From Spirochaetaceae bacterium (GTDB taxonomy: Bacteria; Spirochaetota; Spirochaetia; DSM-2461): DNA of 64,000 bases. A model generated the notes under the pieces. It did no database searches and had not been told where the DNA came from. It saw nothing but the letters and a program-made list of their open reading frames with translations. Made by a program: the position numbers and the translations under genes. Within the stretch, counting starts at the first letter, position 1. Each line of letters opens with the position of its first letter. Below are positions 7,713 to 44,379 of this stretch, in pieces. The stretch is taken from the NCBI GenBank assembly GCA_016744925.1, contig JADGDJ010000001.1, positions 1 to 64,000 of the forward strand. The letters run 5' to 3'.

Positions 7713-8816
7713 ATGTCAGAAGAAAAAAGCAGAATCTGCTATTTAGTTATCAATCCGAACCGGTTCCCCCAGTACGTTAAAATATTAAAAAAAATTGTAA
7801 AGAAGTATTCTTTTTTTCATGTAATAGAATCTCAGGACAGCAATCATTTCCTCGAATCAATCAGTGAATATTATTTCAGTGAAACTCCTTATATCCTTAT
7901 TTGGGGGGGTGATGGTACGGCTCATGCCGCCATAAACAGGCTCACAGAATTGAAAATTGAGCATCCTGATGACCATATAAAAAGATCCATCGGTTTTCTC
8001 CGGGGCGGTTCGGGTAATGGAATACAGGATTCCTATGAAGTTCCTTTCAGCATTTTCAAACAGTTGAAAACGTATATAAACAGTATGAAAAATAACTACT
8101 CCATCGATGTGGATCTGATCAAAGTCGATTACGATGGAAAAACAGATTATACCCAGCTGGCAGGTGTCGGTTTCGATGCGAATATTCTGAACTTGAGAGA
8201 CAATGATAAATACAAAACAGGACGCTTAAAAGGGATCATAAAACCAGGGATGTGGAATTATCTGACAGCTGTCTCAAAAGCGGTTTTCAGCAAACTCGAT
8301 AAAAGTGAAAATATATACGATGTCGAATTGTATTTCGGAAGATATTTATTTCAGGGAACTAGGGTTAATGCTCAGGTAAATTTTGACCATCTGAAGAAAA
8401 ATTGTAATCCACTGATCATCGAAGTGGGAAACCGTCCCTACTTTGCCGCTTTATTCAAGATTTGTCCTCATGTTGTCTGCAATAGTGGTGCAATGAATCT
8501 CTACATTTATCACAAAATGTCAAGAATGACCATAATCAGAAATCTCAGATATTTCTGGACTGGTCAGCACAACAGAATCAATGACCGGTTTGCTATGAAA
8601 AAGAAACCTGTCATTGAAAATTTTGAAGTAAAAAGTAGTCAGATCAGTTCAAAAGTCCCCTTCAACTTCCATATGGACGGTGATCTGAAAAAAGTGAAAA
8701 AAGACGTCAACGGAAACTATACTGTGAAATTCACCATATTGCCGGGATCCATAACTTTTCTCGTTCCCGAAGCCTTTTTCAATAAATTTCATCCCCCGGG
8801 AGTCTATCCGAACTAG
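7713..8816 (+). CDS. Diacylglycerol kinase-family (lipid/sphingosine kinase-like) protein
   Basis: IWGGDGTAHAAINRL, GFLRGGSGNGIQDS. Confidence 0.85.
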   Translation: MSEEKSRICYLVINPNRFPQYVKILKKIVKKYSFFHVIESQDSNHFLESISEYYFSETPYILIWGGDGTAHAAINRLTELKIEHPDDHIKRSIGFLRGGSGNGIQDSYEVPFSIFKQLKTYINSMKNNYSIDVDLIKVDYDGKTDYTQLAGVGFDANILNLRDNDKYKTGRLKGIIKPGMWNYLTAVSKAVFSKLDKSENIYDVELYFGRYLFQGTRVNAQVNFDHLKKNCNPLIIEVGNRPYFAALFKICPHVVCNSGAMNLYIYHKMSRMTIIRNLRYFWTGQHNRINDRFAMKKKPVIENFEVKSSQISSKVPFNFHMDGDLKKVKKDVNGNYTVKFTILPGSITFLVPEAFFNKFHPPGVYPN

Positions 8817-41442: not shown

Positions 41443-41545
41443 TTATACACCTCGTAAAAAAATAATAACATGGTTTTTAATTATTTGCCCTCATCGAAAT
41501 TCTGTTTTAACCTTAAACTAAACTCATAAAACATTGGAGCAGTAT

Positions 41546-42715
41546 ATGTTAAATATCGCACTATTCGGCCCTCCGGGAGCCGGCAAGGGAACTCAGTCGG
41601 AATTTCTAATCAAAGAATACAATCTCTTTTATATTTCCACTGGAGATATATTGCGCAATGAACTGGCTAATGAAACAAAACTAGGTCTTGAAGCTAAGAA
41701 CATTATTGCATCCGGTGGTCTCGTTTCCGACGAAATCATTGTTCAAATAATTGAGAAAACCATTATCAACAATCCATTTTCCAATGGTTTTCTCTTTGAT
41801 GGTTTTCCCAGAACCTACATCCAGGCCTATATTCTCGAAGGGCTGATGATAAAACTCAATACGTCTCTTAATTGCCTTATAAGCCTGGAAGTAGAAGAAG
41901 AGGAATCTGTAACAAGATTGCTGAACAGAGGAAAAACCTCCGGCAGAATGGATGACAATGAAACCGTCATCCGAAACCGTTTGAAAGAATACTACGACAA
42001 AACACTTCCTGTATTGCAGTTTTATAAAGACAAAGGTGTTTTGAGGGAAGTCAATGGAAATCAGATCATAGAAAAAGTTACAGTGGACATCAAAGATGTT
42101 ATCAGAGAGGAATTAAAAAACAGTCTATTCAATGTTGTTCTCTTTGGATATCCCGGATCGGGACGGGGAACGCAGGGAAAAGCTCTGGCGGAAAAATTCG
42201 GTCTGGAATATGTAGCTACAGGTAATATGCTCGATGAAGAGATAAAAAAAGGCTCAGAAATAGGAGAAAAAATACAGGAAATCTACGATAACGGATTGTT
42301 GGTTTCCGATGAAATCGTTGTTCAGTTAATTGAAAAGAAACTCGAAGAGTCAAAAGATGTAAAGGGATTTATTTTTAAAGGTTTTCCCAGAACACTTGTT
42401 CAATCCTATATTCTGGACGGTCTTCTCAAGAAACACGGTTCCTTTATCTCTCAGGTCATTGAGATAGAAGTACCCACACTCGATCTGATAAGCAGACTCG
42501 ATGCACGGAGAAAAACCGATGACAAACGCCCCTATGATAGTGAGACTTCTAAGATAGTTCAGAGACTGGCAGACCATCAGGACAAAACAGTGCCTGTTAT
42601 CGAAAAATACAATGAGCAGCACGGGGTGAAAAAAATAGATGGAAGAGGAACCTTCGAAGATGTCTTTGATTTGATCTCCAATGAGATAAAAAGCGGAATG
42701 CAGAATATGCGTTAA
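41546..42715 (+). CDS. adk: Tandem adenylate kinase: active-looking domain 1 + degenerate domain 2
   Basis: Domain 1 FGPPGAGKGTQ, FLFDGFPRT, GRMDD; domain 2 FGYPGSGRGTQ, FIFKGFPRT; start MLNIALF at 41546. Confidence 0.9.
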   Translation: MLNIALFGPPGAGKGTQSEFLIKEYNLFYISTGDILRNELANETKLGLEAKNIIASGGLVSDEIIVQIIEKTIINNPFSNGFLFDGFPRTYIQAYILEGLMIKLNTSLNCLISLEVEEEESVTRLLNRGKTSGRMDDNETVIRNRLKEYYDKTLPVLQFYKDKGVLREVNGNQIIEKVTVDIKDVIREELKNSLFNVVLFGYPGSGRGTQGKALAEKFGLEYVATGNMLDEEIKKGSEIGEKIQEIYDNGLLVSDEIVVQLIEKKLEESKDVKGFIFKGFPRTLVQSYILDGLLKKHGSFISQVIEIEVPTLDLISRLDARRKTDDKRPYDSETSKIVQRLADHQDKTVPVIEKYNEQHGVKKIDGRGTFEDVFDLISNEIKSGMQNMR

Positions 42716-42747
42716 ATGAAGAGGGTTGCAGGAGCAACCCTCTTCAT
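42716..42747. terminator. Bidirectional terminator-like inverted repeat between convergent genes
   Basis: ATGAAGAGGGTTGC-agga-GCAACCCTCTTCAT perfect 14-bp stem. Confidence 0.75.
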
Positions 42748-42749
42748 AT

Positions 42750-44237
42750 TTATTGTCCTTTTTTCAGGACATGCTGCGAATAAACAGCACTGGCACAAAG
42801 CGTCAGAAACTTGGTCATGTCATTATCGCTTCTCGATGTGAGAATTACAGGAACTCTAGCACCTAGAACGACATTCGCTACATCTGCCCCCATGGTCATC
42901 GCCCATGCTTTGTAGAGAAAATTTCCCCCGGCTATATGGGGAACGATAAGTATATCCGCTTTTCCCGCAACGGGAAGATCTGTCATACCCTTGTGTTTGA
43001 CAGCCTCATCATACAAAGCCAGATCATAAGAAAGAGGTCCGAAAACAGTGGCATTTCCCCATTCCATATCCGAAAGCTGTTTGGCAAAAATACTTGTGGG
43101 TATTTTCTCTGAGGGTTTCTCATTGGCATCGAGAATAGCGACATTTGGCTGATCGACCCCCATGCTTTGTGCAACGTCGATAGCATTGAGTATGATATCT
43201 TTTGAGGCCATCACATCATTGGCAACAGTAAGAGCCGGATTGATTCCCGGATCCGTCAAAAAAACTAAACGGTCGACTTCCGGAAGTTCAAAAATACTAA
43301 CAAGTGATAAGCGTCTTCCCGTTCCTATCCCCTTATCCTTGTTGAGAATGGCTTTCATAAAGACAGCCGTATTAATCTTGCCTTTCATAAGCATATGGCC
43401 TTCTCCTGAATGGATCAGTTCAATGGCTTTCTCAGCAGAAGCTTTGTCAAAATCATCTTCTGCGGGATCGATTTCAATAAATTTATAGAATTCCGCATAT
43501 TTTAAGAGTTCCATAGGATAAGTGGAACTGTCTCCGACGAAATAAGCATATTTTACAACCTTTTCTTCTAGAGCCCGATTCACCGCTTCTATAGCCGTCG
43601 AGTTAGGCATTACGACGACCACATTCATGCCTCCGATTAATTTTGCCCCTTGAATAAGATTTGACATTAAAGGACTGCGGGAAATATTCATCATGGCCTT
43701 TTCATTGTATATGGTCACAAGAATTCGGGCATTGCCGCCTATGGCATTTAAAGCGTGTTTAAATGATGAATCAAAATAGAGAGTATCACCTTGATTGAGA
43801 ATATATTCACGATTATCGACAATGATTTTAAGAGAACCCTCGATGACGTAATGGAATTCCTCACCTTCATGGCTGCTGTATTCAAGATTTTCATCATCCT
43901 GTTCAAATACTTCAACGAGGAAAGGCTCAATATGCCGACCACTGTAATCCGGTGCGAGACTTTCGTACTTGTGCCTCTTTCGCCGTTCTACGATTTTTCT
44001 GCTTTCAGGTCTGGTGACTGTAATTCCGGCATCATGAAACTCTTTCCCATAAATCAAAGCAGAAATATCAGTTTCCAGGGCCGCAGAAATTTTTAAAAGT
44101 TCAGAGACTGAAGCCTCAACATCTTTCTCTTCCAGTTCTTTCAAATAATCCGCATCCATTCCGACAATGTCCGCCAGCTTCTCAATGGAATAGGATTTCC
44201 GTTTCCGGAGTACTTCAATATTGTTCCCAGTATGCAT
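42750..44237 (-). CDS. XRE-HTH + cupin + phosphate acetyl/butyryltransferase fusion
   Basis: HTH IEVLRKRKSYSIEKLADIVGMDADYLKELE; cupin SSHEGEEFHYVIEGSLKIIVDNREYILNQGDTLYFDSSFKHAL; PTA/PTB VFLTDPGINPALTVANDV, GKADILIVPHIAGGNFLYKAW, in one uninterrupted frame. Confidence 0.88.
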   Translation of the reverse strand: MHTGNNIEVLRKRKSYSIEKLADIVGMDADYLKELEEKDVEASVSELLKISAALETDISALIYGKEFHDAGITVTRPESRKIVERRKRHKYESLAPDYSGRHIEPFLVEVFEQDDENLEYSSHEGEEFHYVIEGSLKIIVDNREYILNQGDTLYFDSSFKHALNAIGGNARILVTIYNEKAMMNISRSPLMSNLIQGAKLIGGMNVVVVMPNSTAIEAVNRALEEKVVKYAYFVGDSSTYPMELLKYAEFYKFIEIDPAEDDFDKASAEKAIELIHSGEGHMLMKGKINTAVFMKAILNKDKGIGTGRRLSLVSIFELPEVDRLVFLTDPGINPALTVANDVMASKDIILNAIDVAQSMGVDQPNVAILDANEKPSEKIPTSIFAKQLSDMEWGNATVFGPLSYDLALYDEAVKHKGMTDLPVAGKADILIVPHIAGGNFLYKAWAMTMGADVANVVLGARVPVILTSRSDNDMTKFLTLCASAVYSQHVLKKGQ

Positions 44238-44379
44238 TATGCCCCACTTTATAATATTTTCGTTAATATTGAGTTATATTATACGGCACATAATGATTTT
44301 TTGCGAGAAAAACTCGAAAATCGTAAATAAAGAGAGAAGCTTGACGTCAATTGAATAGCTCATCCAACCTTTGGAAGAT

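Follow-up and report, generated by a model that had tools for sequence, protein, structure and literature searches.

The fusion gene and its domain layout

The window analysed here is a 64,000-nucleotide stretch of contig JADGDJ010000001.1 from a Spirochaetaceae bacterium (assembly GCA_016744925.1). One uninterrupted open reading frame of this stretch, with an ATG start, codes for a 495-residue protein made of an XRE helix-turn-helix (HTH), a Cupin_2 domain and a phosphate acetyl/butyryltransferase (PTA/PTB) domain (Table 1). In Pfam, HTH_3 at residues 10–59 scores 26.7 bits (cut-off 23), Cupin_2 at residues 119–174 scores 45.9 bits (cut-off 27.2) and PTA_PTB (PF01515) at residues 266–476 scores 85.2 bits (cut-off 24); HTH_3 followed by Cupin_2, each over its cut-off, is the domain order of XRE-cupin proteins. 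The last domain is stretched to about residues 182–490 by the NCBIfam PTB profiles, and in phmmer it aligns to the solved phosphate butyryltransferase 7vg9 with an E-value of 2e-45, and also to 3tng and 1yco. Both the uninterrupted three-domain frame and the domain limits given by an earlier sequence-only reading of this DNA are borne out by these searches.

Table 1. Features of the fusion locus, in window coordinates.
Feature	Position	Strand	Basis or remark
XRE-cupin-PTB fusion gene, 495 aa	42750..44237	-	single ORF; full-length orthologues without stops
HTH_3 (XRE) domain, residues 10–59, acidic, net -4	44061..44210	-	Pfam; charge count
Cupin_2 domain core, residues 119–174	43716..43883	-	Pfam; orthologue alignment
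PTA/PTB domain, ~residues 190–488	42774..43670	-	Pfam, NCBIfam, phmmer, residue comparison
Conserved promoter-proximal element TTACGATTTTCGAGTTTTTCTCG	44304..44326	-	one exact copy per genome, 4/4 species of genus
TATAAT, probable -10 box	44278..44283	-	conserved in 4 species
AATATT-N6-AATATT of the sequence-only reading	44253..44270	-	present, not conserved in relatives
14-bp hairpin, terminator-like, between convergent adk-adk and fusion genes	42716..42747	.	

The cupin residues H123, E127, H129 and H161 are invariant in the orthologue alignment (A1). A separately started PTB, beginning at the conserved internal Met182, was considered and rejected because no conserved Shine-Dalgarno sequence precedes this codon in the fused genes. 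An AlphaFold model built from a 12-sequence alignment reached a pLDDT of 54.6 and was too poor to use.

Distribution and origin

Eleven orthologous loci, one of them cut by a contig end, are found in GTDB contigs, all in spirochaete metagenome-assembled genomes. They share the same three domains, contain no internal stop or frameshift, and align at 62–84% identity without a gap at the domain joints. A whole-genome search of 395 genomes of the class finds the fusion in 16: the window's genome and 15 further spirochaete genomes from four families, which carry full-length versions (51–84% identity). It is present in all 4 species of the window's genus, in all 8 genomes of a second family, in 3 of the 4 genomes of a third (the fourth genome is 68% complete) and, at 51% identity, in a single genome of a fourth; among 393 genomes drawn from the phylum it occurs in only 4. 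One of its carriers, G371, is a one-contig chromosome of 4,653,970 bp.

The window belongs to a 413-contig draft assembly, and a missed stop, a frameshift or a chimeric assembly might in principle have joined the domains. The chance of such an artefact is practically nil, since full-length frames are present in four families whose genomes were assembled independently, the one-contig chromosome among them; the fault at the cupin/PTB junction against which the sequence-only reading had cautioned is refuted by the orthologues. The fusion is real and conserved. Phyla other than the spirochaetes were covered only by the close-relative scan of GTDB contigs, and the fusion possibly occurs there as well.

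In a tree of 65 PTBs the fused domains group together in a single clade (support 100/99), as do the fused XRE-cupin halves in a tree of 35 XRE-cupins (97/91), so that one old fusion event would be sufficient to explain all fused proteins. A literature search found no paper that combines XRE, cupin and PTA/PTB domains; as far as the searched papers show, the fusion is undescribed.

The PTB domain

Residues referred to here as active-site or conserved are those of the structure paper on the Clostridium acetobutylicum PTB, CaPTB (PMC9706017). In window protein numbering, the fused PTB keeps K285, D329, D405, K416, N439, K443, S468, R469, D471 and T475. CaPTB residues D217, K228, N250, K254, S279, R280, D282 and T286 are kept in 16 of 16 fused proteins and K186 in 15 of 16, while M or A stands in place of E285, at a position that varies in stand-alone PTBs too. 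In a comparison with 52 stand-alone PTBs (49 from the searched genomes and 3 from PDB alignments), the 16 fused proteins retain most of the highly conserved PTB positions. The active site is intact, in line with the complete PTA/PTB domain of the sequence-only reading, and the fused PTB is therefore expected to catalyse, possibly with altered specificity.

Two changes run throughout the fused clade. The TDxxxN..P..K loop has four extra residues and is without its P and K, which are present in 50 of the 52 stand-alone PTBs, and G455 is replaced by N or S. The remodelled loop indicates that the specificity or rate of the fused enzyme may differ. The phosphate butyryltransferase equivalog profile TIGR02706 gives 208.4 bits, below its cut-off of 410.5, and the substrate should for this reason not be named butyryl-CoA; the two stand-alone PTBs of the window genome, at 287.0 and 308.5 bits, are also under this cut-off. 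Fusion-bearing genomes hold other PTB-family genes as well, so the fused enzyme need not be indispensable.

The altered loop, the substitution of G455 and the additional PTB-family genes would also fit a PTB domain that binds its ligand without useful catalysis and acts as a pure sensor for a transcription or protein-protein regulator. This is improbable given that the active-site residues are invariant, that the PTB is the best conserved domain of the fused proteins (74% mean identity) and that a butyrate kinase gene (buk) directly overlaps the fusion in one genome, G501.

Gene neighbourhood

In two genomes (G371 and G377) the fusion is the last gene of an operon iorA-iorB-ptb-buk-fusion. The overlap of buk and fusion in G501 is of 4 bp, and no buk adjoins the other PTB found there. 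In the second family the fusion lies 3' of leuA (2-isopropylmalate synthase) in three genomes (L047, L008 and L013), and its neighbours at locus L079 are a Glu/Leu/Phe/Val dehydrogenase and an H+-pyrophosphatase. In the genus of the window, the fusion gene ends at a hairpin shared with a double adenylate kinase gene; ior-ptb-buk-aminotransferase is located elsewhere in the window genome.

None of the neighbours recurs in every fusion-bearing family, and what the neighbourhoods share is acyl-CoA derived from 2-oxoacids. For ptb/buk homologues next to 2-oxoacid:ferredoxin oxidoreductases, formation of ATP from acyl-CoA in amino-acid fermentation has been proposed (PMC13285125, PMC13290082). The ior-ptb-buk, buk and leuA neighbours tie the fusion to 2-oxoacid-derived acyl-CoA metabolism, and they support the link to acyl-CoA or acyl-phosphate that the sequence-only reading had drawn.

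Elsewhere in the window genome (L049, 8721-15142) a 2-oxoacid:ferredoxin oxidoreductase operon contains a PTB, a GntR-type regulator and an aminotransferase, with no adjacent kinase. The double adenylate kinase of the window (41534-42715) is a 393-residue protein with two adenylate kinase domains, and it is kept beside the fusion in the genus.

The XRE-cupin module

Counted over residues 10–59 (window protein numbering), the HTH is acidic in every fused member, with a net charge of -3 to -9 and a mean of -5.1. Among nine other HTH_3 domains of the window genome the mean is about +1.4 and the range -3 to +5, the lower end being one ordinary HTH_3 with a net charge of -3. The HTH of SinR and that of PuuR carry a charge of +3, and those of C.BclI and 1y9q, as read from printed alignments, +2 and +3. 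The matching HTH region of the fosfomycin epoxidase HppE has a net charge of -4, and the XRE-cupin module as a whole resembles HppE about as well as it does a solved HTH_3 regulator.

Conservation within the fused proteins is lowest over the recognition helix, with 45% mean identity against 71% for the cupin and 74% for the PTB. A basic HTH with a conserved recognition helix is usual among DNA binders, though no formal criterion, and is not what the fused proteins have. The acidic HTH and the drifting recognition helix argue against ordinary sequence-specific DNA binding; the HTH looks wrong for gripping DNA, which makes such a role doubtful, charge being an indirect sign.

Promoter and gene end

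The sequence TTACGWTTTTCGRKTTWTTCTCG followed by TATAAT is kept upstream of the fusion gene in all four species of the genus. A pattern search with this element finds a single exact match per genome in all four, located at the fusion gene, and as a further match one site with 3 mismatches in G000. The element is not a palindrome, and none like it was seen before iorA or upstream of the fusion in the other families; likewise, no operator common to the promoters of the fusion and of the ior operon was seen in the four species, and Rfam gave nothing at the fusion promoter. The element may serve autoregulation or be bound by some other factor.

The sequence-only reading had proposed a trigger enzyme that reports acyl-CoA or acyl-phosphate status at its promoter. 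In this account, which is the main rival to the one favoured below, the PTB is active and the XRE-cupin part binds its own promoter at 44304–44326, repressing or activating it according to the level of acyl-CoA or acyl-phosphate. Pseudomonas XRE-cupin proteins act as repressors of neighbouring genes (PMC7901475), most XRE regulators are autoregulated (PMC12565409), and the fusion gene belongs, in G371 and G377, to an operon that it could control. The 23-bp element upstream of the -10 box, exact and unique in each of the four species, also leaves room for autoregulation. Against these points stand the acidic HTH with its drifting recognition helix, the asymmetry and genus-limited sightings of the element, and the lack of conservation of the AATATT pair, and control of this kind appears possible but rather unlikely. 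The fusion, the intact PTB site and the metabolic links of the earlier proposal thus hold, while readout by the HTH at a promoter is doubtful. The two AATATT hexamers lie exactly where they had been placed (44253-44258 and 44265-44270), but they are changed or absent in the three congeners and were rejected as an operator.

The terminator-like hairpin downstream suggests that the fusion gene is probably monocistronic in the window genome, and the same probably applies to the genus. In two species only, a long inverted repeat that contains TGATCA (ATAACTGATCAC...GTGATCAGTTAT) overlaps the fusion promoter, approximately at 9360-9420 of L083 and 3640-3705 of L013.

Stand-alone XRE-cupin relatives

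A gene for an AMP-forming acyl-CoA synthetase adjoins, on the same strand, 22 of 23 stand-alone XRE-cupin genes of the phylum; these 23 were drawn from the strongest matches to the window protein and are hence no random sample of XRE-cupins. The exceptional one has a gene nearby that matches VorB, a subunit of 2-oxoisovalerate oxidoreductase. Of three synthetases profiled, two have MbcS (branched short-chain) as their best-fitting profile, with scores under its cut-off. At five loci (L089, L090, L094, L095 and L097) synthetase and XRE-cupin genes alternate within one operon, with one XRE-cupin per enzyme. Such alternation of acyl-CoA synthetase and XRE-cupin genes is seen over loci L088-L107.

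The stand-alone proteins fall into two clades, 5 with a basic and 18 with an acidic HTH, the labels being set from the charge. In L090 and L094 the basic XRE-cupin is the first of the series and the acidic ones come after. On the unrooted tree, the basic-HTH stand-alone clade lies closer to the fused clade than the acidic-HTH one does, which suggests that the acidic HTH may have arisen twice. With a dedicated acidic XRE-cupin beside each enzyme, a role as protein partner seems more readily explained than one as second or third transcription factor. Tentatively, a branch of the XRE-cupins may have dropped DNA binding and now serve as dedicated protein modules for the gating of acyl-CoA enzymes, with the fusion as a clue to physical partnership.

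Proposed function and known systems

The best reading of the fusion, which we hold at about even weight, is an active phosphotransacylase whose fused cupin module would tune the enzyme. The PTB would catalyse the reversible reaction acyl-CoA + Pi <-> acyl-phosphate + CoA on acyl groups that are derived from 2-oxoacids and are probably branched-chain or aryl, and the acyl-phosphate product would feed butyrate kinase to give ATP. The XRE-cupin part would be a ligand-sensing, dimer-forming module that adjusts the attached enzyme, and not mainly a DNA-binding switch. We infer from the comparisons above the catalysis, the class of substrate and the action of the cupin on the enzyme in cis rather than on the promoter.

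The phosphate butyryltransferase Ptb, known from C. acetobutylicum and L. monocytogenes (3u9e), is like the fusion in its PTA_PTB active-site residues and, in some genomes, in lying near buk. Known Ptb is, however, a stand-alone protein of about 300 residues, to which the fusion adds a 190-residue XRE-cupin module and a remodelled TDxxxN..P..K loop. A PTB-like domain is C-terminal in a fusion also in PRK08190, a bifunctional enoyl-CoA hydratase/phosphate acetyltransferase, but its N-terminal partner is an enzyme and not an XRE-cupin.

The XRE-cupin transcription factors PuuR, ErfA, PsdR and PauR (PMC7901475) have the same HTH_3 and Cupin_2 order, the length and the metabolic context of the N-terminal half; unlike them, the fusion has an acidic HTH, no conserved palindromic operator that could be found, and a covalently joined enzyme. 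The stand-alone XRE-cupins of Spirochaetota, relatives of this half, also have an acyl-CoA enzyme as partner, although in their case the two are separate genes and the AMP-forming synthetase is another enzyme. HppE (1zz6) is an enzyme whose chain consists of an HTH-like part and a cupin, with a matched HTH region that is also acidic; its catalyst is the cupin itself, whereas in the fusion it is a third domain.

Gene regulation by "XRE-cupin transcription factors" is usually inferred from the HTH alone, and with a conserved fusion of XRE-cupin and enzyme whose HTH is acidic, direct control of an enzyme becomes a testable alternative. In anaerobic spirochaetes the fusion is also a likely point of control in amino-acid fermentation, on the route from 2-oxoacid through acyl-CoA and acyl-phosphate to ATP.

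The leuA leader

A leucine-rich leader ORF with the core LNLLLSxLLS precedes leuA in L047 (leuA at 8061), in L008 (before 974) and in L013 (before 1880), and in L047 it is followed by a terminator-like hairpin. The leader in this spirochaete family is likely a leucine attenuator, judging from these sequence features. Rfam gave only sub-threshold matches at the leader, which were taken as chance. At approximately 7850-8000 of L012, a LeuA-like C-terminal tail lies just upstream of the fusion; unrelated genes, helicase- and methylase-like on reading, now stand between, and leuA seems to have been lost there.
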